Below, in pieces: positions 1-35,569 of a stretch of DNA of 35,569 nt. Location of the stretch: IMG/VR virus record IMGVR_UViG_3300022865_000014, positions 1-35,569 of that record. The stretch is one strand, 5' to 3'. Numbering within the stretch: the first letter of the stretch is position 1; the number at the start of each line of letters is the position of its first letter. This DNA comes from a virus. The notes below the pieces were generated by a model. That model was not told the DNA's origin and did no database searches. It saw only the letters and a program-made list of their open reading frames with translations. The position numbers and the translations under genes are program-made.

Positions 1-45
1 CCTCTTCTTTTTGTGTGAGCTGATTTCCCTGAGAGTTGGTGGGCC

Positions 46-276
46 GTGAGTCGTGTTGATGATCTGCGAGATGACTACGACCTTTTGGGCTCAGCGATGC
101 AGGCGGCCGAAGGTTCGTGGCTGGCGTCACTCGCCCGCGAGCGCCGTGTGATTGGCGAGTTACTAGAAGCCCTCGAGACTCCCGAAGAGGTGACCGTTGT
201 CGACGAATTGGACGCTCAACGTCGAGCCCGCACCGGCGATTCTGGTTCTTCCTCCCGACGCCGCAAGTCTGGATGA
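46..276 (+). CDS. Putative terminase small subunit, version A
   Basis: A 76-aa protein starting at GTG 46. It is highly charged, predicted mostly helical, and ends in a Ser/Arg/Lys-rich basic tail (RARTGDSGSSSRRRKSG). Its identity rests on position: it lies directly before the large terminase and overlaps its start by 80 bases, as small DNA-recognition subunits often do. A second, dissimilar protein of similar size (34375-34629) holds the same place before the second large subunit. I see no clear HTH signature. The ribosome-binding site is weak. The first 10 bases of the window match bases near 34317, so the true upstream context is probably the leader seen at the other end. Confidence 0.55.
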   Translation: MSRVDDLRDDYDLLGSAMQAAEGSWLASLARERRVIGELLEALETPEEVTVVDELDAQRRARTGDSGSSSRRRKSG

Positions 277-1678
277 AGCTCACGCAGCTATTGAGCTGTG
301 GGAGCACTATTCACGCAAGACGCTCGACCCGACACAGCGGCTAGCTGTTGAGGTGATGATGGCCGAAACGGCCGATCATCGCTGGGCTGCTCAGACGACC
401 GGTCGCGAGATGGCCCGCCAGAATGGCAAGGGCGACGAGATCGAGGTCGTTGAGTTCTGGGGCATCGTTCAGCGCGCCGAAGCAATCCTTCACACGATCC
501 ACGACGCTGTCCTGCTGGCGACCGAGACACAGGCCCGCATGTTGATGGTTCTCGATCACAAGGATCTCCGCTCGAAGATCAAACGTAAATGGACCGGCAC
601 CGGTCAGCAGATGATCGAGATGCGTAACGGTGGTCAGATTTGGTATCGCACCAGAACGGGGGGCGGTGGCCGAGGCACTGACGATATCGATCGCGTGGTT
701 GTTGATGAAGCTCAGCACGCTACCGCCGAGCAACTGGCAGCAATGACGCCGACGCTATTTGCCAACGCCAACCCTCAACTCAACATGATCGGCACCGCCG
801 CTCTCCCGAAGATATCGAAGCCGTGGTGGGCTGTTCGTAAGCGTGCGCTACTGGCTGACCCTGGCCCGTTCGGTTACGTCGGCCACACCGCTGAGACGCT
901 AAGCCTCAGTCCGAACGGTGATGTCGTTTCGGTTGTGCCTTTAGATTTCACCGACGAGTCGGTATGGATTGCGACCAACCCAGCCGTCACCCACCGACCT
1001 GCAGGCAAGATCGAGTTTCTTCGTGAGCAGTATTACCTGCTCGGCCCGATTGGTTTCGGCCAAGAGCATCTCTGTATCTGGGCTGTTGAGCCTGGCACTG
1101 ATGGCGAGGCTGGCCCGATCGATCTCGACATGTTCGCATCACTCGGCCGCGTCAACGTTGAGTATGACCATTCGACGGTGTCGCTTGCGTGCGTCGTTGC
1201 CTATGACCGTTCGTGGACTTCGATCGTGGCGGTCGGTTTGGCGCCTGATGGTTTTGAGCAGGCGAAGCTAGTCGCCACTCGGCCAGGTACTCAATGGGCC
1301 GCTGAGCGTGTCCGTGAGTTGTGCCAGGAACTCGGCGGTAAGCCGGTCGCAATGGTCAAAGACGAACCGCTTATCGACGACATGATTGCTCTCGGCGTGA
1401 CGGTTGTCCCAGTGTCCGGTGCTGATCAAGCCAAGTCTTCACAGAAGCTCATTGACGCATGCTCCGGCGAAGCACCAACACTCCGCCACCGTGGGGAACC
1501 GGCGCTAACGAAGGCGCTCGAGCTGGCCGCCACGAAGCCTTACGGCGACGGCAACACTGACTTTAGTAGCCGGGCATCGAACGGTGACATCTCGCCACTT
1601 AAAGCACTGACGCTCGCCTACGGCCGGCTAGGTGCTGAACAAGCTTTAGGCGATCCGCTCGCCGCCATTCTTGCCTGA
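197..1678 (+). CDS. Terminase large subunit, version A
   Basis: A 493-aa packaging motor: ATPase plus nuclease. The N-terminal half has a Walker A-like ARQNGKG at about residues 73-79 and Walker B VVVDEAQ at about 166-172. The C-terminal half, from about residue 318, is the RNase H-like nuclease, with acidic positions in VAYDRSW, a KDEP segment and a C-terminal DISPLKALTLAYG. The start chosen is TTG 197, with GAGGTGA shortly upstream; the second terminase also begins with TTG inside the end of its small-subunit gene, which supports this. Length fits phage large terminases. From base 1148 the DNA is nearly identical to the end of the window (35489-35569), while the ATPase half is clearly different from the other copy. 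Confidence 0.9.
   Translation: MSTNWTLNVEPAPAILVLPPDAASLDEAHAAIELWEHYSRKTLDPTQRLAVEVMMAETADHRWAAQTTGREMARQNGKGDEIEVVEFWGIVQRAEAILHTIHDAVLLATETQARMLMVLDHKDLRSKIKRKWTGTGQQMIEMRNGGQIWYRTRTGGGGRGTDDIDRVVVDEAQHATAEQLAAMTPTLFANANPQLNMIGTAALPKISKPWWAVRKRALLADPGPFGYVGHTAETLSLSPNGDVVSVVPLDFTDESVWIATNPAVTHRPAGKIEFLREQYYLLGPIGFGQEHLCIWAVEPGTDGEAGPIDLDMFASLGRVNVEYDHSTVSLACVVAYDRSWTSIVAVGLAPDGFEQAKLVATRPGTQWAAERVRELCQELGGKPVAMVKDEPLIDDMIALGVTVVPVSGADQAKSSQKLIDACSGEAPTLRHRGEPALTKALELAATKPYGDGNTDFSSRASNGDISPLKALTLAYGRLGAEQALGDPLAAILA
1148..1228 (+). repeat. Copy 1 of terminal homology (terminase nuclease start)
   Basis: These 81 bases match 35489-35569 with two differences (1177 G versus A, and the last base). 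They encode the start of the nuclease domain, RVNVEYDHSTVSLACVVAYD and onward. Sequence upstream of 1148 diverges sharply from the other copy. This is either an assembly overlap between variants of one circular genome or a partial gene duplication. Confidence 0.9.
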
Positions 1679-1691
1679 TTAGGAGGCCAAC

Positions 1692-1835
1692 ATGCCGAGT
1701 CTTTCGACGTTCGTGCAACTTGCTGGCGGCTGTGTCTTTGTGGGCGGCTGCTTCGTTCTGACGGTATGGCTTGGCCTTATCGTGGGCGGCGCGCTGCTCA
1801 TGCTTACCGCTGAGGCAATGGAGCGCACATCGTGA
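1692..1835 (+). CDS. Small membrane protein between terminase and portal
   Basis: A 47-aa protein with one of the strongest ribosome-binding sites in the window (AGGAGG at 1681-1686, 5 bases before ATG 1692). After a short N-terminus it is a continuous hydrophobic, Gly/Val/Leu-rich stretch (about residues 10-38) compatible with one membrane span or a helical hairpin, with an acidic/basic tail. The stop overlaps the portal start (GTGA). I do not recognise a family. The position suggests a head-assembly or membrane-associated accessory role, but that is inference; the strong RBS and exact coupling make it a real gene. Confidence 0.7.
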   Translation: MPSLSTFVQLAGGCVFVGGCFVLTVWLGLIVGGALLMLTAEAMERTS

Positions 1836-3001
1836 CGTTGGGCTCTTCGTTTCAGAAGCGGTCGATCTCGCATCAGGATGTGTTTGGTTCTGGCGGCAAT
1901 TGGTCTGACGTTTCGGGCGGTTCCGCCACAGTCTCGAAGCAGCTTGCTATTACTTCGACGCTAGCGTGTGTCGACATCAAGGCGGCGTCGATCATGTCGA
2001 TGCCGCTTCACGAGTACACGCCGTTAGGTGATGGCCGGACGAAGGTCACGAAGTCGGCAATCCTCGATTCGCCGTCGGAAGTGTTCAGTCCTGAAGAATG
2101 GCTTTACGCCTGCTCGGCGTCGCTGTCGTTGTGGGACGAGGCCATCGGCTTTATCACCGCATCTGCTCGCGGTGGCTGGGCGACGAAGCTCGAATGGTTG
2201 AACCCTGACGACGTATCGAAAGAGAAGTTTCAAGGCCGAGTCAAGTACGGCTACGCCGGCAAGTTGCACGAGAAGTGGCCGCTCGGCCCGATCGTACATA
2301 TCCGTCGTCGTCCGCTGCCTGGTTCTCTCGGTGGTGGTGCGTCGATCGGCAAGGCGCTCGATCAGTTGGTCACGTTGGGCACGGAGGGCGCTAAGGCGCA
2401 GGTTGCTTCATATCTGGCTGGTGGCCTACCGCTCGCCCACCTTGAGTGGGAGGGGCAGCTCGACAGTGAGCAGGCCAAAGCGACAGCGGACCGTTACGAA
2501 ACGTCTCGTCGTACAAATCCAGGCCGACCATTCACGACCGGCAAGGGTTGGAAGCTGACACCCATTTCCCGTGGTGACGCCACTTCTGACATGGTTGCGA
2601 TGCGTGAGCGGATCGCTACAGAGATCGCGGTGGCGCACGGTGTGCCGCCCGAGCTTGTTGGTGGTTCTACCGGCAGTTCAATGACGTACAGCACGCTTGA
2701 GGGCGTGACACGTTCGCTTGAGGTGCGGGCGTTGTATCCGGTTTATGTCGCGATGGAGCGGACGTTCTCACGGAACCTGCTGCCAGGCGATCGTTTCTGC
2801 AAGTTCAACGCCAACGCAACTGTCCGTACATCACTAGCTGACCGTTACAAGGCGCACGACACAGCTATCCGCGCCGGTATGGCGTCGCCTGATGAACGTC
2901 GAGCGCTTGAGGACGAGGCACCAATCCCGAATGGCGCAGGCGACGTGTACTTGTGGCCGCCATACGCAACGACACCGACCCCTTCGGAGGTTCAGCAATG
3001 A
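1832..3001 (+). CDS. Portal protein, HK97 type
   Basis: A 389-aa protein forming the dodecameric ring at the capsid vertex through which DNA is packaged and to which the tail joins. Typical portal features: an N-terminal TSTLACVDIKAASIMSMPLH segment, a central segment around GYAGKLHEKWPLGPIVHIRR, and the conserved Gly/Ser-rich region VAHGVPPELVGGSTGSSMTY followed by a long helix (SLEVRALYPVYVAMERTF). Length is normal for the HK97 portal family. GTG 1832 overlaps the preceding stop, and its own stop overlaps the protease ATG 2998. The C-terminus is Pro/Thr-rich. Confidence 0.92.
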   Translation: MTLGSSFQKRSISHQDVFGSGGNWSDVSGGSATVSKQLAITSTLACVDIKAASIMSMPLHEYTPLGDGRTKVTKSAILDSPSEVFSPEEWLYACSASLSLWDEAIGFITASARGGWATKLEWLNPDDVSKEKFQGRVKYGYAGKLHEKWPLGPIVHIRRRPLPGSLGGGASIGKALDQLVTLGTEGAKAQVASYLAGGLPLAHLEWEGQLDSEQAKATADRYETSRRTNPGRPFTTGKGWKLTPISRGDATSDMVAMRERIATEIAVAHGVPPELVGGSTGSSMTYSTLEGVTRSLEVRALYPVYVAMERTFSRNLLPGDRFCKFNANATVRTSLADRYKAHDTAIRAGMASPDERRALEDEAPIPNGAGDVYLWPPYATTPTPSEVQQ

Positions 3002-6298: not shown

Positions 6299-6309
6299 AA
6301 GGCACACCA

Positions 6310-6510
6310 ATGAGCAAGTCACCCGTTTATGAGGCGCAGGCCGATCTTCAGTGGTGCGGCCAATCGTTTTCCGCAGGCGACGAGGTGACCGGCGACGCGC
6401 TGGCTGCCCTGTTGCCGTACGGCGACCGTTTCGCCGCTCTCCGTAAGCCCGCACCAGTCGCAACACCAACCCCGAAGGCCTCAGGCCCGACCACAGAGAA
6501 GGAGGCCTGA
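6310..6510 (+). CDS. Small hypothetical neck-region protein
   Basis: 66 aa from ATG 6310, chosen over an upstream in-frame start at 6262 because GAAAGG sits 7 bases ahead of it. Residues 5-45 (YEAQADLQWCGQSFSAGDEV, then ALAALLPYGDRFAAL) form a compact domain like that in the 5085 gene: a strand, a GD turn and an Ala/Leu helix. A Pro/Thr-rich tail follows. It may be a head-tail joining accessory protein; function unknown. Confidence 0.6.
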   Translation: MSKSPVYEAQADLQWCGQSFSAGDEVTGDALAALLPYGDRFAALRKPAPVATPTPKASGPTTEKEA

Positions 6511-6511
6511 C

Positions 6512-7260: not shown

Positions 7261-7281
7261 GGCCCAACATTGGGGGAAACC

Positions 7282-7599
7282 ATGAAACTGCAGCTCAACA
7301 TCACGAAGACTGACGGCACCGAAGAACTGGTGCCCGTCCGACCGCGTACACAGGTCGCCTATGAGCGGCACTTTAAGGCGCAGCTGAATAGTGACATTGG
7401 CATGGAGCAGCTCTATTGGCTGGCGTGGCATTCGGCCGGCGTTGTCTCCAAGTTCGACAACTGGCTGGACGATGTCGAACTCGTCGCGGCCGTAGTTGAC
7501 GATGGCGAAGGTGACGACCCTTTGGACGCGAATCAGTCCTCTGGGGAGTTGTTGCCGTCGCCATTGAGTCAGGCGCCGGGATCACCATCGACGAGTTGA
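7282..7599 (+). CDS. Tail assembly chaperone, short form (gpG-like)
   Basis: A 105-aa protein from ATG 7282 (GGGGGAAA RBS just upstream; an in-frame TTG at 7270 lies before the RBS and is less likely). The N-terminal part (TDGTEELVPVRPRTQVAYER) and AWHSAGVVSKFDNWLDDVELV match actinophage tail chaperones, which coat the tape measure before tube polymerisation. The acidic linker DDGEGDDP leads directly to the slippery site at 7518. The zero-frame C-terminus is a short Ser/Pro-rich tail, as expected for the unshifted product. Confidence 0.85.
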   Translation: MKLQLNITKTDGTEELVPVRPRTQVAYERHFKAQLNSDIGMEQLYWLAWHSAGVVSKFDNWLDDVELVAAVVDDGEGDDPLDANQSSGELLPSPLSQAPGSPSTS

Positions 7600-7673
7600 T
7601 GGAGGACGGCGACCTGTTCACGGTCGCCGCCAACTATCTGAACTGGCGATCCGATCAGCAGTCCCGCAAGTAA
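7282..7673 (+). CDS. Tail assembly chaperone, frameshifted long form (gpGT-like)
   Basis: Predicted -1 frameshift product: the short chaperone up to 7524, then the -1 frame, giving an added domain beginning RESVLWGVVAVAIESGAG and ending FTVAANYLNWRSDQQSRK. The TIDELMEDGDLF segment and the helical, aromatic C-terminus are typical of T-extensions that contact the tape measure. The extension has no good start codon of its own. This arrangement, directly upstream of the tape measure, is conserved in long-tailed phages. The total is about 130 aa, small for the family. Only the length of the product and the exact slip fraction are uncertain. Confidence 0.82.
7518..7524 (+). other. Programmed -1 ribosomal frameshift site CCCTTTG
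   Basis: The heptamer fits X XXY YYZ in the chaperone reading frame (GA-C CCT TTG). The -1 frame has a stop at 7512-7514, immediately before it, and then stays open to TAA 7671. The opening of the frame and the site coincide, leaving a narrow window for slippage exactly here. Confidence 0.85.
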
Positions 7674-7701
7674 TCCGAGTTATGACGAAAGGCGGGCGAG
7701 C

Positions 7702-11720: not shown

Positions 11721-11933
11721 ATGTTGGTAACTGGTGGGCGAACCCAAGAGATTACTTGGGGTGAGGTGGCGGCTACGTCGCCGTTGACAGTGTTATTCGC
11801 GGGGGATGCTACGGCATCTCCGGTCGCGTTGAAGGATGCGTCGTTGACGTTGTCGGTTGCCGACAAAGTGATGCTCGCGAAGGTCGGCAAGCCTGACGGC
11901 TGGGCCGTCGTGTTGAAGCTGGGAGCGACCTGA
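11721..11933 (+). CDS. Small tail-tip associated protein
   Basis: A 70-aa protein one base after the hub gene, with GGGGAG upstream inside the hub's end. It is mainly beta (TQEITWGEVAATSPLTVLFA; ALKDASLTLSVADKVMLAKV; GKPDGWAVVLKLGAT) and looks like a small barrel, possibly of OB type. Similar tiny genes commonly follow the hub gene in actinophages. Its stop shares bases with the next start (TGATG). Confidence 0.65.
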   Translation: MLVTGGRTQEITWGEVAATSPLTVLFAGDATASPVALKDASLTLSVADKVMLAKVGKPDGWAVVLKLGAT

Positions 11934-15721: not shown

Positions 15722-15955
15722 ATGGGATTAGCAGACGCAATCAACGAAACACGCAACACACCCGCCAAACGGCTCAAGGTGGACGTCATGCTCGAACAGA
15801 TGGACGCAGACGACGCCGCAGCGCTCGACGTCGCGCTCCGCGACCTGACGCTGACCGCCGGCAAACTGTCCGAAGCGCTCCGCCGCAACGGCACGCCTAT
15901 CACCGAAAACCCAATCCAAGAATGGCGGCGCCGGAATCTGGAGGTTGCAGCATGA
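15722..15955 (+). CDS. Small helical protein upstream of phosphoesterase
   Basis: 77 aa, RBS AAAGGGGAAA directly before ATG 15722. Charged and helical (LKVDVMLEQMDADDAAALDV; LTAGKLSEALRRNGTPITEN), ending PIQEWRRRNLEVAA. The central part resembles a small helix-turn-helix or oligomerisation unit. Coupled to the phosphoesterase gene by the junction word GCAGCATGA. Not recognised; a DNA-binding partner of the phosphoesterase is possible. Confidence 0.65.
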   Translation: MGLADAINETRNTPAKRLKVDVMLEQMDADDAAALDVALRDLTLTAGKLSEALRRNGTPITENPIQEWRRRNLEVAA

Positions 15956-17106
15956 GTTTACGAGACGCACTCAAAGCTGGCGATGACAAGCGCGTTGGCA
16001 ACAAACTCATCATGGACATGGCCGAAGGTCTAATTGCCCGCGGCATCGACGCATCCGAACTCGGCAGACTCGCCAGCCTTAAAGTCAACTCTTCGGAGTG
16101 GAACAGTCTGACAAAAGACGCCGACGGCGAAGCACACCTACACGACCTCCGCGGCATCAAGCTGTCAGCCGAATGGTTCACTGAGCCCGAATGGCCGGTA
16201 GTCCAGCAGGCGAAGCCGATCAAGTACGTCCCGGCCAAGACGCGAAGTGTAAACGGCGCGAAACATACCGTCATCTTCCCTGACCAACAGTACGGGATAC
16301 GACGCATCGACGGCGAATTGATCCCATGTCACGACCGCGAAGCCATCACCGCATCGCTTGTCGTCGCGAAGGCCATCAAGCCCGACCGGATCACCAACCT
16401 CGGGGACCTCATCGACCTGCCAGAATGGTCGCTCAAGTTCACACAAACACCCGAACTACAAGAGACAACCCAACCAGCAGTCGATGAGGCGTACCGGGAT
16501 CTGACCCGTCAGCGTGAGATTTGCGACGACATCGACATCCTCGAGGGCAACCACGACGACAGGCTTGCTATCGCCGTCACCACGAACGCCCAGGCGGCGC
16601 TCAGGTTGCGTCAGGCCAACACGACACCGGACACGTGGCCCGTGTTGTCTCTGCCCCACCTGCTGCGTCTGGACGAACTCGGGATCACCTATCACGACGG
16701 CTACCCGGCGAACCGTACGAAGATCGCGAACGGCACCGACGAGCAGACGCCGCTCTACGCCGTGCACGGCGAGGCGCTCGACATGATGAAGCTCGCTAAG
16801 CAGTCGCGGCAGTCCTACATTCAGGGCCATATCCATCGGCGCGCGTCGTTCACTGAGACGTTTGAGATTGACGGTCGGCCAACGATGGTGACTGCGATGA
16901 CACCGGGCTGTCTCTGCCGGATTGACGGTGCGGTGCCTTCCACGAAGTCGGCTAAGACACGTAAGCGGCCGCTGACCCGTTGGGAGAACTGGCAGCAAGG
17001 TATGGCGGTTATCACTGAATGGGATGATGGTGATTGGGCTGCAGAGATCATCCCGATTCACCGTGGTCGCGCCTTGTATCGCGGCAAGACGTTCGATGCG
17101 GCATGA
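15952..17106 (+). CDS. Calcineurin-like metallophosphoesterase
   Basis: 384 aa from ATG 15952 (ATGA overlap). An N-terminal helical part (about residues 1-95) precedes a metallophosphoesterase domain with NLGDLIDL, LEGNHDDR, VHGE and QGHIHRR, i.e. the GD, GNHD, H and GHxH metal-binding blocks in order. The first block, normally DxH, reads FPDQQYG, so the expected histidine is glutamine. This family includes nucleases and nucleotide or phosphoprotein phosphatases; the substrate cannot be told from sequence. Its position at the end of the late operon, after the holin, suggests a late, non-structural or injected role. Confidence 0.82.
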   Translation: MSLRDALKAGDDKRVGNKLIMDMAEGLIARGIDASELGRLASLKVNSSEWNSLTKDADGEAHLHDLRGIKLSAEWFTEPEWPVVQQAKPIKYVPAKTRSVNGAKHTVIFPDQQYGIRRIDGELIPCHDREAITASLVVAKAIKPDRITNLGDLIDLPEWSLKFTQTPELQETTQPAVDEAYRDLTRQREICDDIDILEGNHDDRLAIAVTTNAQAALRLRQANTTPDTWPVLSLPHLLRLDELGITYHDGYPANRTKIANGTDEQTPLYAVHGEALDMMKLAKQSRQSYIQGHIHRRASFTETFEIDGRPTMVTAMTPGCLCRIDGAVPSTKSAKTRKRPLTRWENWQQGMAVITEWDDGDWAAEIIPIHRGRALYRGKTFDAA

Positions 17107-17500: not shown

Positions 17501-18565
17501 TCAGGCAGCTTGCTGGTCGTTCCAAAACGCAGGTGTCGCTAGTGGCTTAATCAGTGGCCAGATGCGACAGGCGTGATCCTTGCCGTCAAGCATGGCGAAC
17601 ACGACGCCAGGGTGATCGCATGTCTTGATGATCTCAGCCAACTGTCGACGCTCGCCGCCAGCTGGCAGGGACTTAAACACCAAGCAGGCCCCATCCTCGA
17701 TCAAGGTGAACTGTTCCATGATGTCGGCAACAGTCGCGTGCACCCAGTCGTAGAACTCATCCGGCACCGTTTCCAGTAGTTCTGTGAGTGGGTGCCCGTT
17801 GCTCAGCAGCTCCCAGATCGTACGCGTGTTAACACCGGTCAGCAGTTTGTGCAGTCGCACGTAGTTCGGGAACTTGGCCTTAGCTCGCGTTCCGTTCGGC
17901 CAGCGCAGCACGTACCCCTCGGCGTTCGGTTCGTCCATCCCCGCAATGTCGGCAAGCGTGAGATGGTGCTGGGCTGCCGACGACCCCGGCCAACCAAGCG
18001 CACCGCAGTCAACACCGGTTTCAATGTCGATGCAGGTGAGTAGGACCAACTCGGCGCGCTCGCCGTACTCAACAACGATTCTGTTCTCTGGGTAGATGAT
18101 TTCAAAGAGCGGCGTCGTGCCGTCAATGAGCATTGACTGAAGCCAACTGGCGCACCTGGGGTTTGATTCCAGCCACCCCATTGCCCATATCGCCTGCTCT
18201 GATGTGAACGAACCGCGAGTCGAGATAGCGGGGTCGCCCTCCGGCGTCAGGTAGCCAATACCAAGAGAGCCGTCCAGCTTCTCATCAACGACCGGGACAC
18301 CGTCAGGGATGGTCGCGAGCTGTTCAAGGTTGAAGAACTTTCGGAACGGCCGAGCGACGACGTCCCCGCTCGTCGTGGTGATGAGTCCGCGCGATATCAG
18401 CGTGGCGTCGTTCCACTCATTGTCATACTGGGCGCGCTGCGCGTAGTTATGGATGAACAGTCGACCAGTTTCATCGGTCTTGCGGTGCACGAAGCCCTCA
18501 TCAATCATGCGTTCCATCAATTCAAGGTCGACAATGTCGCCTAAGTGGGTTACTGTCTTGCTCAT
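17501..18565 (-). CDS. RNA ligase, T4 Rnl1-like
   Basis: A 354-aa ATP-dependent RNA ligase (T4 RnlA family). Nucleotidyltransferase motifs are complete and at nearly T4 Rnl1 spacing: motif I EKLDGSLG with nucleophile K96 (T4 K99), motif III/IIIa FEIIYPENRIV with E155, motif IV EGYVLRW with E216, motif V RAKAKF with K229/K231. The Rnl1 signature PFRKFFNLEQ precedes motif I. Rnl1 seals tRNA-Lys cut in the anticodon loop by the host PrrC nuclease; a similar RNA-repair role here is inference. RBS AAGGAA upstream of ATG. It is 42 bp downstream of the integrase in the same direction, so it is probably expressed with integrase and perhaps in the lysogen. Confidence 0.88.
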   Translation of the reverse strand: MSKTVTHLGDIVDLELMERMIDEGFVHRKTDETGRLFIHNYAQRAQYDNEWNDATLISRGLITTTSGDVVARPFRKFFNLEQLATIPDGVPVVDEKLDGSLGIGYLTPEGDPAISTRGSFTSEQAIWAMGWLESNPRCASWLQSMLIDGTTPLFEIIYPENRIVVEYGERAELVLLTCIDIETGVDCGALGWPGSSAAQHHLTLADIAGMDEPNAEGYVLRWPNGTRAKAKFPNYVRLHKLLTGVNTRTIWELLSNGHPLTELLETVPDEFYDWVHATVADIMEQFTLIEDGACLVFKSLPAGGERRQLAEIIKTCDHPGVVFAMLDGKDHACRIWPLIKPLATPAFWNDQQAA

Positions 18566-21271: not shown

Positions 21272-21612
21272 GCCGTCACCTCGGCTGGTGTGGCGTACGT
21301 GGCGCAAGAGGTGAAGCCGGACTGGCCGGGCGTCTTTGATACGTGGTGCCATACGATCGTCCATCTCGGCAGGTAGATCCCTTCGCCGCAGTGCTTGCAC
21401 AACGTGGCGGGCTTCGTGAGGCGCTGCCATTTGGCACTTGCTGTGCCGTAGCTCAGTGACCCGTACTCGTTGACCATCGCGAAACGGTCGGGATTGACCG
21501 GGCTGACACCAACAAAATATTCGGCGTCAGGATCGGGCCATTCAGCAACGGCGATCAGGTCGCCGTTCACCATCTCATCGACGGTGACGGGTGTACGTGT
21601 CATGGCGGTCAT
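21268..21612 (-). CDS. MTRTPVTVDEM-family zinc-ribbon protein, lysogeny-side copy
   Basis: 114 aa, RBS AAGGGG 5 bases before ATG 21612. Begins MTAMTRTPVTVDEMVNGDLI, then a beta-barrel-like part (EYFVGVSPVNPDRFAMVNEY), RLTKPATLCKHCGEGIYLPR with a CxxC knuckle, WHHVS, and a second Cys before ATYATPAEVTA. The N- and C-termini are nearly identical to those of the plus-strand gene at 22817, and the CxxC/IYLP/WHH part to the gene at 24132. So the phage holds a paralogue family on both sides of the genetic switch. Function unknown. Confidence 0.7.
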   Translation of the reverse strand: MTAMTRTPVTVDEMVNGDLIAVAEWPDPDAEYFVGVSPVNPDRFAMVNEYGSLSYGTASAKWQRLTKPATLCKHCGEGIYLPRWTIVWHHVSKTPGQSGFTSCATYATPAEVTA

Positions 21613-22776: not shown

Positions 22777-22820
22777 TCGTCATTCTTCTCCGCCTTCGTC
22801 TCAAGGCGTTCACCCGATGA
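22773..22820 (+). CDS. 15-codon bridging mini-ORF
   Basis: GTG 22773 overlaps the regulator stop (GTGA) and the TGA at 22818-22820 overlaps the next ATG 22817. The predicted peptide is MIVILLRLRLKAFTR. It may serve only to carry ribosomes across the 40-base gap (translational coupling); a hydrophobic, basic micro-peptide is also possible. Confidence 0.3.
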   Translation: MIVILLRLRLKAFTR

Positions 22821-23137
22821 GCGCCATGACACGCACACCCGTCACCGTCGACGAGATGGTCAACGGCGACCTGATCGCACATAGTGACTGGGCCGACGAT
22901 ATGGCCGTGACGTTCATCGGGCGCATCCCGTCAGACCGTAGCTTCGTCACACTCCTACGCAACGGTAATCCTGCCATCCGCTACGACAATGGCAACTGGC
23001 GGCGTCTCACGAAGCCCGCCACGTTGTGTGAGTGCGGCCTGGCGATCGTTGAGTCAGATGCTGGGTGGCTGCATGAGGCCAGCGGCATGATCGTTTGCGT
23101 ATCCCGTAGGGCCACACCAGCCGAGGTGACGGCATGA
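22817..23137 (+). CDS. MTRTPVTVDEM-family protein, early-side copy
   Basis: 106 aa. Begins MSAMTRTPVTVDEMVNGDLI and ends RRATPAEVTA, as does the minus-strand gene at 21268, with the shared RLTKPATLCECG knuckle. The interior is diverged (DDMAVTFIGRIPSDRSFVTL), and here the second Cys pair is CVS rather than the full zinc ribbon. ATG 22817; stop overlaps the excisionase start. Role unknown; possibly a binding partner competing with the other copy. Confidence 0.7.
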   Translation: MSAMTRTPVTVDEMVNGDLIAHSDWADDMAVTFIGRIPSDRSFVTLLRNGNPAIRYDNGNWRRLTKPATLCECGLAIVESDAGWLHEASGMIVCVSRRATPAEVTA

Positions 23138-24377: not shown

Positions 24378-25093
24378 CAATCACCAACCCTCTCCGCCTC
24401 GCTGTCGGATCTCACGAAGCCGGTAGCGGCAAAGGATGCGCGATGAACGTAATCAGCTGGGAAAACGGGGACACGAAGATCACCGACTTCCCCGACTGCT
24501 CTGATCAGCTGTTGACCCGCATTGTGCAACGTGTCAACGACACAATTTGCAACCATCGTGACGGTGATCTGTTGTGCGCTCCGTGCTCGCTGATTGTCCT
24601 CAAGTTGGGGCATCGCACGGTCGGTACCGGGACGGTCGATCTGACCGATCTTGAACGTCGCACGATTTTGGTGAGGATTGCTGCCGACCAGGCGCGGCAG
24701 GTGCAGCATTTAAACGCTGACCTGAGGGTTGATGCGGCAATCTTGGCTGCTGAGGCATGGGCTGATAATCCAACCGAAGAGAACGGCAACGCCGCCGCCA
24801 AAGCCAACGTCGCCGCCAACGTCGCCGGCTACGCCGCCGCCTACGCCGCCGCCGCCTACGACGCCGTCACCTACGCCGCCTACGCCGCCACCTACGCCGC
24901 CGCCGCCGCCAGCTACGCCGCCGCCAACGCATCGACTGCCTACGCCGCCACCTACGCCGCCAAAGCCGACCCAGACCAACGACTCAACCTGGCGCACCGG
25001 GCCATCGACTTATTCGAGCAGCTCACCAGCCATGTCGCCCCAGCGCCAGACGAAACCGTCACGCTCAAAGCACTCGAATCGATGCTCGCATGA
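24374..25093 (+). CDS. Protein with Ala/Tyr-rich low-complexity domain
   Basis: 239 aa from ATG 24374 (ATGA). Residues 1-130 are globular (GCAMNVISWENGDTKITDFP; LLTRIVQRVNDTICNHRDGD; TVDLTDLERRTILVRIAADQ). Residues about 139-197 are nearly only Ala with regularly spaced Tyr (AAYAAAAYDAVTYAAYAATY), encoded by GCC/TAC runs, followed by DQRLNLAHRAIDLFEQLTSH. Such Ala-rich Y/D repeats occur in many actinophage proteins. It probably forms a long alpha-helix. Function unknown. Confidence 0.7.
   Translation: MTITNPLRLAVGSHEAGSGKGCAMNVISWENGDTKITDFPDCSDQLLTRIVQRVNDTICNHRDGDLLCAPCSLIVLKLGHRTVGTGTVDLTDLERRTILVRIAADQARQVQHLNADLRVDAAILAAEAWADNPTEENGNAAAKANVAANVAGYAAAYAAAAYDAVTYAAYAATYAAAAASYAAANASTAYAATYAAKADPDQRLNLAHRAIDLFEQLTSHVAPAPDETVTLKALESMLA
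24789..24962 (+). repeat. GCC/TAC codon repeat tract
   Basis: A tract of GCCGCC and TACGCC units coding the Ala/Tyr-rich segment. The same tract leaves the opposite strand open and Gly/Val-rich, which I treat as a by-product. Confidence 0.85.
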
Positions 25094-25580: not shown

Positions 25581-25876
25581 CCGTCATCGTCGACGAGCAG
25601 CCCGGTCGCCCAACCATCTGGTGGTTTGTAACTCCTGGCGACGAACGGGAAGCCGGCAACCATCAAGGCCTTTACCTCGAAACACATGTCGGCCAGCTCG
25701 ACCAGGTCGGGCTTTCCGTCGCCGGTGAACGTGACCTGGACTGGGACGAAGCGATCTCCATCGTTGACCACTACGACATCGCTGACCCGTCGCTTGTTCG
25801 AGCCGAGACGCTCGCTATCGCCGCCGCTCTCATCTCCATGACAAACCAAATCACCACAGAACAGGCAGCAGCATGA
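25577..25876 (+). CDS. Small acidic hypothetical protein
   Basis: 99 aa, ATG 25577 (ATGA). Starts VIVDEQPGRPTIWWFVTPGD, then HVGQLDQVGLSVAGERDLDW and SLVRAETLAIAAALISMTNQ. Mixed alpha/beta, acidic. Ends EQAAA at GCAGCATGA. It precedes the RecE-like nuclease but shows no recombination motif. Unknown. Confidence 0.6.
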   Translation: MTVIVDEQPGRPTIWWFVTPGDEREAGNHQGLYLETHVGQLDQVGLSVAGERDLDWDEAISIVDHYDIADPSLVRAETLAIAAALISMTNQITTEQAAA

Positions 25877-26745
25877 CCGACACGACCGCAATCACCGCAC
25901 CAGGCATCTACGACATCAGTGACGAGGTGTATCACGCAGACCCGATCGAAGGCGGCTCACTGTCATCGTCGGGTGCGAAGACCATCCTGAAAGCGCCGGC
26001 ACTGTTCAACCACCAGCAGCACGCCGGCCAAGAATACAAGGACGTGTTCGACTTCGGGACCGCAGCGCATAGCGTCGTTCTTGGCACCGGCTCATTGCTC
26101 GCCGTACTCGACTTCAAGGACTGGCGGGCAAGCGGAGCAGTGGCAGCGAAGAAGGAAGCCCGGCAGGCTGGACTCACGCCGATCTTGACGAAAGACAAGG
26201 TCATTGTCGATGCGATGGCTGAAGCGCTTAAAGGCTGCGCTCAGGCTGTCGGGCTGCTCGACGGCCGGAAGGGTAGGGCTGAACAGTCGGTGTTCTGGGA
26301 GGACTGCGGCGCCTGGTTCCGCGCCCGACCTGACTTCCTTTACAACGAGCCGCGTGACGGCGAAGACTACCTGATCTGCGTTGACTACAAGACGACACTA
26401 GACGCATCGGACTCAGCGTTCGAGAAGACGATCATCAACTACGACTACCACATGCAGGCAGCGCATTACAGCGCTGGTGTTGAAGCGGTCACTGGTCTGC
26501 CAGTCAAGTTTGTGTTCATTGCGCAAGAGAAGACGGCGCCTTACTTGGTTAACACCTTCATCCTGAGTAACTCGCTGCTTGCGATGGGCTCAGAGCGCAT
26601 GGACCAGGCGATCACAGTGTGGCGCGAGTGTCGGGCAACGGGTGTCTGGCCTGGCTATCCGCCCGAGACGAAGATTGCAGTCGCTTCGCATTGGGCGACC
26701 CAGCAGCACGAAGACAACCGTGAGAAGTGGGGGATGGCCTCGTGA
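25873..26745 (+). CDS. RecE-like PD-(D/E)xK exonuclease
   Basis: 290 aa, ATG 25873. A 5'-3' exonuclease that would make single-stranded tails for RecT. The N-terminus ISDEVYHADPIEGGSLSSSG with KTILKAPALF and FDFGTAAHSVVLG is the characteristic RecE/PDDEXK-phage pattern; FRARPDFL supplies the active-site Asp and ICVDYKTT the D-x-K; YHMQAAHYSAGVEAVTG with FIAQEK is the conserved C-terminal helix and strand. Normal length for the phage family. Two small genes separate it from RecT. Confidence 0.88.
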   Translation: MTDTTAITAPGIYDISDEVYHADPIEGGSLSSSGAKTILKAPALFNHQQHAGQEYKDVFDFGTAAHSVVLGTGSLLAVLDFKDWRASGAVAAKKEARQAGLTPILTKDKVIVDAMAEALKGCAQAVGLLDGRKGRAEQSVFWEDCGAWFRARPDFLYNEPRDGEDYLICVDYKTTLDASDSAFEKTIINYDYHMQAAHYSAGVEAVTGLPVKFVFIAQEKTAPYLVNTFILSNSLLAMGSERMDQAITVWRECRATGVWPGYPPETKIAVASHWATQQHEDNREKWGMAS

Positions 26746-26906: not shown

Positions 26907-27094
26907 GTACCCGTTACGAAGCGCAGGCCATCGCACCCGGTCGAGGCATCACCGTCTACTCACCGTGGGCCGACATTGAACGCGACCACGTACCCGCAGC
27001 CGTGCAAGAACTGCTCGACCCGGTCGAAGTCCGCTACGTCACGATTGCCGCCCAAGACAACATCGCACATTCCTACCGCAGAAAGAAGCCATGA
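26903..27094 (+). CDS. Small hypothetical protein before RecT
   Basis: 63 aa from GTG 26903. Beta-rich (STRYEAQAIAPGRGITVYSP), then helix DHVPAAVQELLDPVEVRY and a basic end HSYRRKKP. Possibly a recombination accessory. Not recognised. Confidence 0.55.
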   Translation: MSTRYEAQAIAPGRGITVYSPWADIERDHVPAAVQELLDPVEVRYVTIAAQDNIAHSYRRKKP

Positions 27095-27095
27095 C

Positions 27096-27878
27096 ATGAG
27101 CAACGCTCTCGACCTTCCGAATGACAACACCGCAACGAAACGAACGATCGGCACCGAGCTAACCAAGTTTCGGCCTGTCTTCTCCAAACTGCTCGCAGAC
27201 ACAGGTATCAGCGAAGAGTCGTTTATGGCGACGATCGCCCAGGCGTATCGCAGTACACCGAAGCTCGATCAGTGCGACATATCGAGCGTGCTCGGTGCTG
27301 GCCTCCGATGCGCCCAATTAGGGCTCACACCGAACGACCCTCGCAACCTTGCATGGATCATCCCCCGCGGCCACGAAGCCACCTTCCAGCTCGGCTACGG
27401 CGGCATCATGGAGCTTGCCCGGCGTGCCGTTCCTGGCCTCAAGTTTGACGGGCACACCGTCTACCCGAACGACGAGTTCAATCTTGACTACGGCACCAAC
27501 GAACTGACGCACAAGCCGAACCTGCATGACCGGGGCGGCGAAGCGTACGCATGGTATGTGCGGGCAACGTTCCCCGATGGCACCGTACAGATACAGGTGC
27601 TTGACCGGGCTGGCGTTGAGTATCACAAGGGCTTCTCGAAGATGGGGAACGCCGGCATGTGGAAAACGAGTTTCGACGCTGCAGCCCTCAAGTCTTGTGT
27701 GATCGATTTGAAACGTTGGTTGCCAGCATCGCCGCAACTCGCAGCAGCTATCGCCGCCGATGACACGGCTATCAAGATCGAGCAGCTCGAACCGATCGAA
27801 CCTAACCACGTTGAGAGCGCCGGCGACATTCGCCATGAAGTGCTCACACCCGACGCCATCACCAGCGGCGCAGCATGA
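27096..27878 (+). CDS. recT: RecT single-strand annealing protein
   Basis: 260 aa from ATG 27096, 1 base after the previous stop; an in-frame upstream ATG at 26976 lies inside the previous gene. RecT family pattern: FSKLLADTGISEESFMATIA, LDQCDISSVLGAGLRCAQLG, LTPNDPRNLAWIIPRGHEAT, FQLGYGGIMELARRAVPGLK, GMWKTSFDAAALKSCVIDLK and RWLPASP. Pairs with the RecE-like nuclease to promote annealing recombination, which also suits the mosaic terminase seen here. No RBS is obvious, so expression is probably by coupling. Confidence 0.93.
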   Translation: MSNALDLPNDNTATKRTIGTELTKFRPVFSKLLADTGISEESFMATIAQAYRSTPKLDQCDISSVLGAGLRCAQLGLTPNDPRNLAWIIPRGHEATFQLGYGGIMELARRAVPGLKFDGHTVYPNDEFNLDYGTNELTHKPNLHDRGGEAYAWYVRATFPDGTVQIQVLDRAGVEYHKGFSKMGNAGMWKTSFDAAALKSCVIDLKRWLPASPQLAAAIAADDTAIKIEQLEPIEPNHVESAGDIRHEVLTPDAITSGAA

Positions 27879-28275: not shown

Positions 28276-28790
28276 GCGGCGCCGTAACTATCGGCATCGA
28301 CCCTGGCTTAGACGGTGCTATCGCCTACATGCAATACGGCCAGCTCGTCAACGTTGTGGACATGCCGACATTCACGATCAAGGTTGCGGGCAAGATGCGG
28401 CGCGTCATCGACGTTGAGCGTCTCCGATTGGTCATTCAAAACGTCCCCTACGGCACAGACGCCGGCGACATTGTCGTCATCGAGCAGCAGTCGACACGCC
28501 CCGGCCAGTCCGCACAGTCAGGCCTTAAAACCGGTATCGGTTACGGCCTCATTATCGGCGTCGTTGTCGGCCTCGGCCACCCCTACCGGATCGTGACACC
28601 GAAGCAATGGAAGAAGCCGTTCGGCCTCACTGACGTTAAAGCCGAATCGGTTGCACTCGCCGCCGAACTCTGGCCCGACGCAGCGGAGTCGTTCTACGGC
28701 CCTCGCGGTGGCGGCAAAGACGGCCGTGCCGAAGCCGCACTCATAGCCGAATACCACGCCCGCAGCAACAACGAAACGAAGGCAGCATGA
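28272..28790 (+). CDS. RuvC-like Holliday junction resolvase
   Basis: 172 aa, ATG 28272. RNase H-fold resolvase: first acidic strand TIGIDPGLDGAIAYM (D10), second VVIEQQSTRPGQ (Glu), GLKTGIGYGLIIGVVVGLGH helix, VTPKQWKKPFGL, and final GGKDGRAEAALIAEYHAR with the catalytic Asp. Cuts branched DNA made by recombination/replication before packaging. Family and order with RecE/RecT support it strongly. Confidence 0.9.
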   Translation: MSGAVTIGIDPGLDGAIAYMQYGQLVNVVDMPTFTIKVAGKMRRVIDVERLRLVIQNVPYGTDAGDIVVIEQQSTRPGQSAQSGLKTGIGYGLIIGVVVGLGHPYRIVTPKQWKKPFGLTDVKAESVALAAELWPDAAESFYGPRGGGKDGRAEAALIAEYHARSNNETKAA

Positions 28791-30079
28791 CGCCATACCA
28801 GACATTCCTACATACCAAACAGCGACGACAGCAACCGGCTGGCGTGATCGTAGACCTAGCCGACATCAACCCGATACTCCACGAATGGCAAGCCGACATA
28901 ACCCAATGGGCGCTACGTAACGGCCGGTCAGCAATCTTTGCAGACTGCGGCCTCGGTAAGACATTTATGCAACTCGAATGGGCCAGGCTGGTCGCTGACC
29001 GATGCCTGATCGTCGCCCCGCTATCCGTCGCCCGCCAAACAGTCGGGGAAGGATTAAAGCTCGGCATTGACGTCACCTACGCCCGAGACGAAGCCGAATC
29101 GCCTACTGATGGCATCACGATCACGAACTACGAGATGCTTGAGCATTTCAACATGGAGCACTTCGACGCCGTCGTGCTGGATGAGTCGTCAATCCTTAAA
29201 AACGTCGACGGCAAGACCCGCCAACGCCTGACCAGTCAAATGGCCGACGTTAAGTATCGGCTTGCGTGCACGGCCACGCCGGCGCCGAATGACGTATCTG
29301 AGCTTTGTAACCATTCCGAGTTCCTCGGGATGTTGCCTCGTAACGAGATGCTCGCCGCCTACTTCGTGCATGACGATGTCGGCTGGCGTATGAAAGGCCA
29401 CGCCGCCGAACCGATGGCTGAATGGATGGCTACATGGGCAGTAGCGCTACGTCGACCGTCAGACCTCGGATACTCCGACGACGGCTACGACCTACCCCCG
29501 CTGAACGTCATCCCTGAGGTTGTGGAAGTAGAACTCGAAGCGGACGGGCAGTTATTCCCGACTGAGCTTGGCGGCATCGGTGGCCGCTCAAAGGTTCGGC
29601 GGGAAACGCTGGAAGCCCGAGTGGAGCGTGCCGTCGATCTCGTCGGCTCAACCGATGACCAGTGGATCGTATGGTGCGGCCTCAACGACGAAGCGGCAGG
29701 CGTGGCTCAATCAATCGACGGAGCAGTCAACGTGGAAGGCGCATGGTCCGCCGACAAGAAAGCCGACGCTCTTGAACGGTTCCAGGAAGGATCGATACGG
29801 GTGCTGGTCACTAAGCCGAGCATCGCTGGTTTCGGCATGAACTTCCAGAACTGCCATCGCATGGCATTCGTCGGGCTCTCCGACTCATGGGAATCGTATT
29901 ACCAGTGCATCCGACGTTGCTGGAGATTCGGTCAAGCCAGCCCGGTAGACGCTCACATCATCGTTTCCGAATTAGAGCAGCAGATCGCTCACAACATCTC
30001 CCGCAAGGAAGGCGACGCACTCGCAACAGCGAACCGTCTCGCCCGTCACTCACCAATCAGAAAGCAGACATCGAAATGA
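28787..30079 (+). CDS. SNF2-type DNA helicase/translocase
   Basis: 430 aa, ATG 28787. Superfamily 2: LHEWQADITQWAL (Q-like), Walker A CGLGKT (54-59), Ia IVAPLSV, motif II LDESS (about 131-135), motif III CTATPAPND, then helicase C domain with VLVTKPSIAGFGMNFQNC (motif V) and YQCIRRCWRFGQ (motif VI). A phage family that travels with methyltransferases and is suspected to help modification or replication; its exact task is not known. Compact length normal for the phage type. Confidence 0.9.
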   Translation: MTPYQTFLHTKQRRQQPAGVIVDLADINPILHEWQADITQWALRNGRSAIFADCGLGKTFMQLEWARLVADRCLIVAPLSVARQTVGEGLKLGIDVTYARDEAESPTDGITITNYEMLEHFNMEHFDAVVLDESSILKNVDGKTRQRLTSQMADVKYRLACTATPAPNDVSELCNHSEFLGMLPRNEMLAAYFVHDDVGWRMKGHAAEPMAEWMATWAVALRRPSDLGYSDDGYDLPPLNVIPEVVEVELEADGQLFPTELGGIGGRSKVRRETLEARVERAVDLVGSTDDQWIVWCGLNDEAAGVAQSIDGAVNVEGAWSADKKADALERFQEGSIRVLVTKPSIAGFGMNFQNCHRMAFVGLSDSWESYYQCIRRCWRFGQASPVDAHIIVSELEQQIAHNISRKEGDALATANRLARHSPIRKQTSK

Positions 30080-31008
30080 CTAAGAGAGCAATCAACGAAG
30101 CTATGCCAGTCGTGGAACCCCAGCCGTATATCGTTGACGACGCATCCGGCGACATGTGGAACCTAATGCTCGGAGATTCATGCGAACGTCTGGCCGACAT
30201 CCCGGACAATTCTATTGATCTGTCTGTCTACTCGCCGCCGTTTGCTTCACTGTTCACATACTCGCCATCAGACCGGGATCTCGGCAACTCGTCCGACCAC
30301 TCAGCGTTCATTGAGCATTTCTCATTCATCCTGTCCGAGATGCTCCGAGTGACGAAACCTGGCCGTAATAGCTGCGTTCACGTCCAGCAGATCACGACGT
30401 CAAAAGCGGCGCACGGTGAGATCGGCCTGACCGACTTCAGGGGCGACGTTATCGCCGCCCACATTGCCGCTGGATGGACGTTCTACGGCGAGGTGACCGT
30501 GAATAAAGACCCGCAGGCGCAGGCGATCCGCACTAAGGCACACTGCCTCATGTTCGCCACCTTAGACAGAGACTCGGCGTCAAACCGGCCGGCGCTTGCC
30601 GACTATCTGCTGATCTTCAAGAAGCCGGGACAGAACGAGGTACCCGTCAAGCCAGATGTCACTCGGGACGAATGGATCGATTGGGCGCAGCCGATCTGGT
30701 GGAACATCCGAGAGTCCGACACCCTCAACTATCAGACCGCCAAAGAAGACGCCGACGAACGACATATATGCCCGTTGCAGTTGCCGTTCATTGATCGTTG
30801 CGTTCGGCTCTGGTCAAACCCTGGCGAAACGGTGCTCTCCCCGTTCGCTGGCATCGGCTCTGAGGGTGTCATGTCGGTCAAGCGTGGCCGTAGGTTCATC
30901 GGCTGCGAACTCAAGCCCTCGTACTGGGCTTCTGGCGTCAAGAACCTGACGAGGGCTGAGTACGAGGCGCAGATGCCGACCCTACTTGATGAAATTGGCG
31001 CCGCATGA
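30076..31008 (+). CDS. DNA methyltransferase (beta-class N6-A or N4-C)
   Basis: 310 aa from ATG 30076 (ATGA overlap). Catalytic motif IV YSPPFAS (53-57) comes before the SAM-binding motif I SPFAGIGSEGV (about 254-264), the beta-class order. SPP[FY] in place of DPPY/NPPY occurs in N4-cytosine and some N6-adenine enzymes, so the base is undecided. LMLGDSCERLADIPDNSIDL precedes motif IV as usual. No restriction gene is adjacent, so it is likely a solitary protective or regulatory enzyme, together with the helicase. Confidence 0.9.
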   Translation: MTKRAINEAMPVVEPQPYIVDDASGDMWNLMLGDSCERLADIPDNSIDLSVYSPPFASLFTYSPSDRDLGNSSDHSAFIEHFSFILSEMLRVTKPGRNSCVHVQQITTSKAAHGEIGLTDFRGDVIAAHIAAGWTFYGEVTVNKDPQAQAIRTKAHCLMFATLDRDSASNRPALADYLLIFKKPGQNEVPVKPDVTRDEWIDWAQPIWWNIRESDTLNYQTAKEDADERHICPLQLPFIDRCVRLWSNPGETVLSPFAGIGSEGVMSVKRGRRFIGCELKPSYWASGVKNLTRAEYEAQMPTLLDEIGAA

Positions 31009-33685: not shown

Positions 33686-33719
33686 CCCGTGTCCGTTGAG
33701 CTCAAAGCTCCGGCACGGG
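33686..33719 (+). promoter_or_regulatory. Hairpin in the HNH mRNA leader
   Basis: Outer stem CCCGTG (33686-33691) with CACGGG (33714-33719), internal loop, inner stem GAGCT (33698-33702) with AGCTC (33706-33710), loop CAA. It lies between the predicted start and the RBS (GGAGG at 33735), with no T-run, so it is more likely an mRNA element than a terminator. Confidence 0.5.
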
Positions 33720-33742
33720 ATCACGCCGAACGGAGGCAGCAA

Positions 33743-34015
33743 ATGTCAAACGGCCCGAAGCACGCAGACCCAGAGTTCAAGCGAATACGTGACGCAATGA
33801 ACCGCAGATCCAACGCCAATCCCGGCACCACCTGCCGACGCTGCGGGCTGACGCTTGCCGAACGACGCAAGGTCAAACCCAAAGACATTTGGACTACAGG
33901 TCATCCCGACCTACCAGGTGACCACGGATACGCACCAGAGCATCGCAGCTGCAACAGCAGCCTCGGAGCACAACACGCCAACGCCAAGCGCCTCGGCTTC
34001 GATCGTGGGCTCTAA
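33743..34015 (+). CDS. HNH endonuclease, packaging-associated
   Basis: 90 aa from ATG 33743 with GGAGG 7 bases upstream; an in-frame GTG at 33689 falls inside the leader hairpin. CRRCGLTLAERRKVKPKDIW, TTGHPDLPGDHG and APEHRSCNSSLGAQ give a zinc Cys pair and the final H-x2-C-N-S-S typical of HNH proteins. HNH proteins next to terminase (HK97 gp74 type) are needed for DNA cutting in packaging. The middle His region is short, so activity is not assured. Confidence 0.78.
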   Translation: MSNGPKHADPEFKRIRDAMNRRSNANPGTTCRRCGLTLAERRKVKPKDIWTTGHPDLPGDHGYAPEHRSCNSSLGAQHANAKRLGFDRGL

Positions 34016-34020
34016 AAGAC

Positions 34021-34048
34021 TTGACAGATGGTGTACGCTGTGTATTGA
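34021..34048 (+). promoter_or_regulatory. Candidate late / leader-RNA promoter
   Basis: Consensus TTGACA at 34021-34026, 16-base spacer, TATTGA at 34043-34048. A second TTGACA overlaps at 34045-34050. The -35 is perfect, the -10 moderate. Confidence 0.45.
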
Positions 34049-34246
34049 CAGGCGATATGAGCCTGACGCCCCCGACTCAGTACGGGGGAAACGCCGAATG
34101 GATTTGCGTACCGCGGTAATGTAGAGGCCAGTCGACTCGGTTAACGCCGACCCTCTGGACCTGTCGTCCTAATTGGTGCCTAAGAAAGCACCCGGCGAAA
34201 AGCATCAGCAAAGTGGTCCAACCGATTCGTCGGCTGGGCCACTTTT
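34049..34246 (+). ncRNA. Structured leader or small RNA upstream of terminase
   Basis: No ORF fits this stretch. Hairpins in series: CAGGC/GCCTG (34049-34065), CCCCCG/CGGGGG (34069-34088), palindrome TACCGCGGTA (34109-34118), AGAGG/CCTCT enclosing TCGG/CCGA (34123-34156), GGTGC/GCACC (34175-34192) and a terminator-like hairpin at 34210-34246. With the TTGACA promoter this resembles a lambda 6S-type late leader (promoter, about 200 nt, terminator, then late genes). A packaging (cos/pac) region is the alternative. Confidence 0.45.
34210..34246 (+). terminator. Terminator upstream of terminase genes
   Basis: AAAGTGG (34210-34216) pairs with CCACTTT (34239-34245), continued by a T-G pair, CCA/TGG, and CCGA-TTCG-TCGG, a UUCG tetraloop. 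The 3' side reads into TTTT. Further hairpins (GGCCTC/GAGGCC, CCCCAA/TTGGGG, AGAC/GTCT) follow up to about 34310; the rest to 34374 shows only a pyrimidine-rich stretch and the Shine-Dalgarno-like GGTGGGG. Confidence 0.75.
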
Positions 34247-34374
34247 GCGTCACGGCCTCTGAGGCCCACCCCAACCCGTTTTTTGGGGAAACAGACCCCC
34301 GTCTAACCCTGCTCCCCTCTTCTTTCTCTCCCCGAAGGCATCGGAGGGGGCCGGCGACTTCGATTGGTGGGGTA

Positions 34375-34629
34375 ATGCCGAACAACCTTACGGCCGCGCA
34401 GACCGGCGACCGAGTCAAAGCGCTCGAGACCTTACGCGACACGCTCGCCGCCCAGATCGACACGACTGAAGCCAATGTCCACGCACAGCTCGCCGCCCAG
34501 TATCGGGCGACGCTCGCAGAGTTGGCCGAGATTGCCGGGACACTGACGAAGCCGAAGGGCAGCCTTGACGAACTCAAGCACCGTCGCGAGGGTCGGCGCA
34601 CAACGTCCAACGCATCTGCTAACGCCTGA
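34375..34629 (+). CDS. Putative terminase small subunit, version B
   Basis: 84 aa from ATG 34375. Helical throughout (AQTGDRVKALETLRDTLAAQ; IDTTEANVHAQLAAQYRATL; AELAEIAGTLTKPKGSLDEL), ending in a basic KHRREGRRTTSNASANA tail. Unlike version A in sequence but equal in size, charge pattern and place: the large-subunit TTG start lies inside its last 65 bases. Function assigned by position. Confidence 0.65.
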   Translation: MPNNLTAAQTGDRVKALETLRDTLAAQIDTTEANVHAQLAAQYRATLAELAEIAGTLTKPKGSLDELKHRREGRRTTSNASANA

Positions 34630-35569
34630 CGGCGACTTCGACTTCACAGACGGCGACGTAGCTATCGAGCTTGCCGCATCGCTTGGCCTTCACTTGCTGG
34701 ACTGGCAGTGTTGGCTTGTCCGCTGGATCTTAGCCGTAGACGAGAACGGTATCCCGGCGTGCAACACGGTCATCCTGGTTGTTCCGAGGCAGTGCGGAAA
34801 GGGCGCCATCCTTGAAGCGCTTGAGTTGTTCTGGCTGATCGTTGCCGGCATCCCGACCGTGATTCACACGGCGCATGAAGCGGACACCGCCGCCGGTCAT
34901 ATGGAGCGCATCGAGTCGCTGACCGCTGACCCCGATATTGACCTTCCGAAGCTCCACACGTACAAGGCGAACGGCAAGGAACGCACCAAGAACCTCGACG
35001 ACAAACTTGTATTACAGTACCGCACCCGCACGAAGGCCACGAAGCGCGGCGCATCGCCGCAACGTGTTGTCTTGGACGAGTCGCAGGAACTGCAAGACGC
35101 CCATCTTGCGGCACTTGTTCCAGCTATGGCTGCTCAGTCAATGAGCCCGGACAAGCTCCCGCAGTTGATCTATACCGGCTCCGCGCCGCTGGCACATTCC
35201 GAGTACATGCACCGGTTGCTTGACAAGGTGATCCGCACCCGGCCGGCGAAGACGCTGCTGGCGATGTGGGCTTGCGAGCCCGACGACGACCCGGAAGACG
35301 TTGACAATTGGTACAAGTCGAATCCGTCGCTCGGCATTCTGATCTCAGAAGAATGGGTGAGGGACACAGAGTTCCTTGTTATGTCACCGTCAGACTTCGC
35401 GGCCGAACGTCTCGGCATACCGGTCAAGCCGGTTGATAAGAGCGCAGGCCACGGCCTCATTGATCTCGACGTGTGGACCGCGCTGGCTCGCGTCAACGTT
35501 GAGTATGACCATTCGACAGTGTCGCTTGCGTGCGTCGTTGCCTATGACCGTTCGTGGACTTCGATCGTT
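34565..35569 (+). CDS. Terminase large subunit, version B (partial, cut by window end)
   Basis: 335 codons are visible, with no stop. TTG 34565 with GAAGGGC 5 bases upstream. Residues: LDWQCWLVRWILA (adenine-contacting Q-like), Walker A VVPRQCGKGAI, coupling-type HTAHEADTAAGH, Walker B RVVLDESQEL, then PQLIYTGSAPL (motif III), CEPDDDPEDVDNWYKSNPSL and SEEWVRDTEFLVMSPSDFAA. It matches the standard actinophage large terminase better than version A. The last 27 codons (RVNVEYDHSTVSLACVVAYD and after) are the start of the nuclease domain and are nearly identical to version A (1148-1228). Confidence 0.9.
   Translation, partial: MTNSSTVARVGAQRPTHLLTPDGDFDFTDGDVAIELAASLGLHLLDWQCWLVRWILAVDENGIPACNTVILVVPRQCGKGAILEALELFWLIVAGIPTVIHTAHEADTAAGHMERIESLTADPDIDLPKLHTYKANGKERTKNLDDKLVLQYRTRTKATKRGASPQRVVLDESQELQDAHLAALVPAMAAQSMSPDKLPQLIYTGSAPLAHSEYMHRLLDKVIRTRPAKTLLAMWACEPDDDPEDVDNWYKSNPSLGILISEEWVRDTEFLVMSPSDFAAERLGIPVKPVDKSAGHGLIDLDVWTALARVNVEYDHSTVSLACVVAYDRSWTSIV
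35489..35569 (+). repeat. Copy 2 of terminal homology
   Basis: Matches 1148-1228 with two differences. Offset between copies is 34341 bases, the likely genome length if the contig is circular. Confidence 0.9.

Follow-up and report, generated by a model that had tools for sequence, protein, structure and literature searches.

The window analysed here, i.e. the whole stretch of DNA under study, is a linear virus record from IMG/VR, 35,569 bases long, with terminase genes at both ends, TerS A and TerL A at the left and TerS B and TerL B at the right. Both pairs are real open reading frames and differ from each other, in agreement with the initial annotation, which had described two distinct small-subunit/ATPase modules. 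The contig comprises a genome unit of 34,315 bp and a further 1,254 bases, read here as a second allele of the first 1.2 kb of the unit. For TerS A no Pfam or PHROG family match was obtained. Relatives were retrieved from other metagenomes by searching IMG/VR with TerL A and TerL B, and in four of them (G001, G002, G003 and G013) TerL B is present in its full length of 484 amino acids.

TerL A consists of an ATPase domain (residues ~1-300), a linker (~292-318) and a nuclease domain (~318-493). Its AlphaFold model (mean pLDDT 79.7) is of low confidence at residues 301-304, and its nuclease domain opens with a strand at 329-334; the model of TerL B was poor (pLDDT 48.9). The best Foldseek match of TerL A was the HK97 TerL (6z6d, E 5e-16), with which it shares the ATPase and RNase H-like nuclease domains (phrog_9), yet the two proteins are only 17% identical in the structural alignment. 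The phage further resembles HK97 in the genes for portal, S78 protease and HK97-fold capsid that follow the terminase in this order (PF04860, PF04586, PF05065); a candidate HNH gene at the right end, suggested by its motif and conserved position and without a Pfam or PHROG match, may be a further parallel. Integrase and WhiB genes in the window point to a temperate phage of Actinobacteria. A host search via genome contigs returned one match only, a Chloroflexi MAG contig with the first bases inside a gene, and was uninformative; no near-identical public phage matched window positions 1-8000 used as query.

Several other features of the genome were observed. A putative tail or virion structural gene (11933-13702) contains several copies of ~138-bp direct repeats, 78-92% alike (11929-12758), and the A contig G004 ends within such a repeat. 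Positions 21533-21612 and 22817-22896 are inverted copies (88% over 81 bp, with more inverted matches alongside) located in two small opposite-strand genes whose proteins begin alike (MTRTPVTVDEMVNGDLIA). Near the integrase lie genes for an RNA ligase (17501-18565, - strand; PF09511, phrog_562) and a metallophosphoesterase-like protein (15922-17106, + strand), possibly an RNA-repair pair. A protein with a weak match to DUF6931 has an alanine/tyrosine-rich stretch encoded by imperfect short repeats at 24789-24968, and at 28787-31008 an SNF2-type helicase gene overlaps the N6/N4 DNA methylase gene that follows.

Features of the window that bear on the terminase modules, with positions, strand and evidence.
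Feature	Position	Strand	Evidence
Left CCTCTTCTTT, putative cosN segment and physical left terminus of the A-type genome	1..10	+	first base of G004, G014 and the window
A-type right flank of cos, starting TTGTGTGAG; candidate TerS-binding (cosB-like) region	11..45	+	motif common to A-type relatives
TerS A, proposed small terminase	46..276	+	position and ORF
TerL A, large terminase	197..1678	+	phrog_9, E 1.3e-33
A/B crossover zone, TerL residues 306-318, inter-domain linker	1112..1148	+	identity profile
110 bp identical in A and the B contig G001, directly after the final B-specific base	1229..1338	+	polymorphism list
Portal protein, in the common backbone to the right of the module that is exchanged	1832..3001	+	PF04860, E 2.9e-41
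PD-(D/E)XK exonuclease-like gene, possible RecT partner	25873..26745	+	PF12684, E 1.6e-22
RecT-family annealing protein, possible exchange driver	26976..27878	+	PF03837, E 2.1e-26
HNH-like small protein gene, directly upstream of cos at the right end	33689..34015	+	CxxCG...GH...PEHxxCN motif
Right CCTCTTCTTT, proposed cos junction: right genome end / B-type left end	34316..34325	+	starts of G001 and G003; read-through in G013
B-type right flank of cos, starting CTCTCCCCGA	34326..34374	+	CYCTCCCCGA motif in L008, L009
TerS B, small terminase	34375..34629	+	phrog_1459 terminase small subunit, E 0.0011
TerL B, incomplete at contig end	34565..35569	+	complete protein phrog_9, E 3e-56
Repeat of 1112-1228, where the common nuclease region begins	35453..35569	+	BLAST/alignment

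The 10-mer CCTCTTCTTT that opens the window occurs on the + strand only at positions 1 and 34316 of the entire window, and its placement relative to TerS and TerL is equal in both copies; the recurrence had been recognised in the initial annotation, which placed it one base off, at about 34317. As such a 10-mer is expected ~0.07 times by chance in 35 kb on both strands, the repeat is weak evidence by itself. The sequences of A and B part ways at base 11. Four other contigs from different metagenomes start with exactly this 10-mer: the A contigs G004 and G014 have window base 1 as their first base and the B contigs G001 and G003 position 34316, while a further B contig (G002) begins four bases later. 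Furthermore, 39 of the 57 contigs of the family start 100-420 nt upstream of their TerL match, where 2.7 are expected from the lengths of the contigs, and the maximum reached in 200,000 runs of a contig-start simulation was 12. Many A relatives have TGTGT[G/T/C] near the contig start, mostly at position 11-14, and in the distant B relatives L008 and L009 the motif CYCTCCCCGA is found exactly 10 nt from the contig start, preceded by 10 nt that differ. The contig starts point to a fixed genome end upstream of terS, and CCTCTTCTTT very probably belongs to the cohesive-end site (cosN). The anchor described earlier as lying in a shared terminase leader is indeed shared, but more than a leader: it most plausibly marks the physical genome end at cos. 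The sequences to the right of the 10-mer may serve as TerS-binding regions. Some contigs of relatives read through the cos site, as expected of circular or concatemeric DNA; among the right ends of relatives examined for overhang polarity, no contig ended at cos and none had both ends there.

The HNH-like gene was also found by tblastn upstream of cos in the B contig L003 and in the A relatives L016, L017, L022, L023 and L030, and immediately before the cos site in G013. The resulting gene order (HNH, cos, TerS, TerL, portal) fits a cos site. The right genome end is itself variable (window 33729-34252 compared with L003 876-1398): about 250 bp of the window before cos (34004-34251) are missing from G013, and about 260 bp of G013 (L003 877-1135) are missing from the window at 33729-33743.

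At the other boundary, positions 35489-35569 differ from 1148-1228 by exactly two mismatches, at 1177 (G/A) and 1228 (G/T, the final base of the contig), the number given by the initial annotation. Similarity of a lower grade reaches left to 1112 (116 bp, 88%) and ends there; the BLAST E of 9e-35 shows that the 84-bp match is non-random. Identity between A and B is ~95-98% to the right of 1148 and at background to the left of 1112, by which the right anchor noted before can now be placed more exactly, at the linker between the TerL domains. The ATPase halves of TerL A and TerL B share 24-26% amino acid identity and the nuclease halves 99%, and a tree constrained to unite the ATPases of A and B, which carry this common nuclease, in one clade was rejected (p-AU 2.6e-74). 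The exchanged cassette runs from the right flank of cos through TerS into the ATPase half of TerL, leaving the 10-mer and the nuclease in place. The contig ends at 35569 because the last B-specific letter precedes the 110 bp identical in A and G001, where the B path probably joins an A path already consumed by the assembler, and both alleles lie on one contig only because the assembly slightly overran one genome length.

Independent contigs carry each version alone. In four contigs (G001, G002, G003 and G013) the sequence continues from B across 1228 and 1229 to the nuclease, portal and capsid genes common to both types, with A absent; this is the continuation from 35569 into 1229 that the initial annotation had proposed to look for. 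G013 contains on a single contig the right genome end, the 10-mer, B and the genes from portal to capsid, again without A. As for the passage from the leader into A, the A-type contigs G004 and G014 have base 1 as their first base, and among the IMG/VR relatives no contig was found that leads from the right genome end across the 10-mer to A. A search for right-end contigs by the HNH gene returned only G013, a search by the helicase gave no close relative, and an exact-pattern search over the right junction gave only G013 and three contigs sharing one unrelated AT-rich sequence. The window is 100% identical to G001 1-1254 over 34316-35569 and to G014 over 1-5660, the latter from a metagenome (3300023227) of Ace Lake, Antarctica (PMC9716671). 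Beyond the junction the B contigs are 92.6-98.5% identical to the window over 6.6-9.3 kb, and the portal of the B contig L004 has 99.7% amino acid identity to that of the window. Across backbone positions 1251-4610, identity is 97.4% between the A sequences of the window and G004, 96.4% between the window and the B contig G001, and 98.0% between G004 and G001, which are identical letter for letter (100%) over 3001-4000; alleles and backbone segments have therefore been reassorted. The backbones beside A and B thus form one recombining pool, which indicates one ~34.3-kb genome with two alleles, and the occurrence of each version alone in independent contigs indicates two alleles in one population and no tandem duplication. 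The genome size and the variable module in two versions suggested by the initial annotation are in line with this. We therefore hold it highly probable that the window represents slightly more than one unit of the 34,315-bp genome of a temperate HK97-type actinobacteriophage, in which a single recombining backbone (95-98% identical) carries the terminal cassette in two allelic forms. This reading brings together the two alleles, the backbone common to them, the TerL linker as the site of crossover and the contig starts at the 10-mer.

A real tandem of two terminases on one phage molecule, raised as an alternative in the initial annotation, would account for the presence of both versions on a single contig, but we regard it as scarcely credible, being contradicted by the B-only contigs that pass straight to the shared nuclease, portal and capsid genes, by A contigs starting at base 1, by the co-occurrence of right end, cos, B and capsid in G013 and by a circularly assembled relative (G023) with a single terminase match. 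Nor does a chimeric assembly of two phage species with a common terminase stretch seem at all probable: the contig does combine a left end of type A with a segment of type B, and the 84-bp match could bridge assemblies, but the B contigs keep their high identity to the window for 6.6-9.3 kb past the junction, over 3001-4000 the A contig G004 is nearer to the B contig G001 than to the A sequence of the window, and G013 joins right end, cos and B independently of the window. With the alleles taken as real, the contig starts at the 10-mer might instead be assembler breaks at the A/B branch and mark no genome end, since the alleles diverge close by, assemblies break at branches and the window terminates on the right in just this way. 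This is improbable, as a branch break would fall at base 11 or a full k-mer earlier and not 10 bases earlier, and distant relatives that have other 10-mers and no known allele pair start there too.

For two alleles on one recombining backbone, the contig would enter at the A-type physical left end and run to the right end, where the path would cross the cos junction into the B-type left end and stop where B merges into the A path. The alleles would be exchanged by one homologous crossover in the linker, with the chromosome end as the other boundary; a single crossover would be enough because the cassette abuts the chromosome end, and the phage's own RecT perhaps aids the exchange. Distant relatives of B (L007-L009) have ATPases 89-90% identical to that of B and a different nuclease (37-38%), while in the A relative L013 both the ATPase and the nuclease are akin to those of A (66% and 76%); it is thus probable that B came into an A-type backbone as a cassette. 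As B's distant relatives begin with 10 bases other than CCTCTTCTTT, the resident 10-mer seems to have been retained at the entry of B.

In the wider family, ATPase and nuclease identities of 63 TerL proteins correlate weakly (Spearman 0.17). Mantel correlations across 55 dereplicated contigs were 0.53 for TerS-ATPase and 0.05 (n.s.) for TerS-nuclease, 0.23 for ATPase-nuclease, 0.37 for nuclease-portal and 0.12 for ATPase-portal. TerS follows the ATPase but not the nuclease, which for its part goes best with the portal, all correlations being modest. Tree tests were marginal, both on the ATPase tree for the main set of nucleases (AU p 0.045) and on the nuclease tree for the B nucleases as a single clade (AU p 0.061). 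Domain shuffling across the family is thus less firm than the A/B case, and quicker evolution of the nuclease may contribute outside that case. Similarly, the TerL halves of Xanthomonas phage PBR31 point to different relatives, for which domain transfer or faster nuclease evolution was proposed (PMC10975493). The ATPase and nuclease domains have different relatives here too, but in contrast to PBR31 one nuclease (99%) is found on two ATPases (~25% identical) in one population, so that differences in rate fail to explain A and B.

In phages lambda and 21, cosN and cosQ are identical and cosB and TerS differ, and each packages its own DNA >1000-fold better (PMC4669245). The layout here is the same as in lambda, 21 and N15, with the specificity element to the right of cosN and adjoining terS, and as in lambda and 21 the 10-mer, presumably cosN, is common and the adjacent flanks and TerS differ. 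Unlike in lambda, 21 and N15, the swapped block also takes in the ATPase half of TerL, and the alleles occur within one population on backbones 95-98% identical. By this comparison A and B would differ in packaging specificity. In HK97 the nuclease ring lies beside the portal and the ATPase below (PMC10359639), an arrangement with which a division of TerL into one part on the side of TerS and another on the side of the portal would agree. We give about an even chance to the proposal that TerL in this actinophage group consists of two exchangeable parts, the ATPase with the cos flank and TerS and the nuclease with the portal, so that one crossover in the linker would swap specificity if the cohesive ends match. 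Conversely, the nuclease halves may have been kept only since homologous recombination needs shared downstream DNA, leaving the linker crossover without functional meaning; B's distant relatives do have a related nuclease (38% amino acid identity), and one crossover anywhere in shared DNA could yield the pattern once. We consider this possible but rather doubtful, as in the family TerS follows the ATPase, not the nuclease, and nuclease-portal exceeds ATPase-portal, modest as these correlations are.

TerL is a frequent marker gene for phage phylogeny and packaging strategy, and if its halves differ in history, whole-gene trees blend two signals. The starts of metagenome contigs can expose cos ends. 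Moreover, the two alleles are a natural matched pair with the same proposed cos 10-mer, nuclease and portal and with different TerS and ATPase, and thus the question of which part of the motor sets packaging specificity becomes directly testable.
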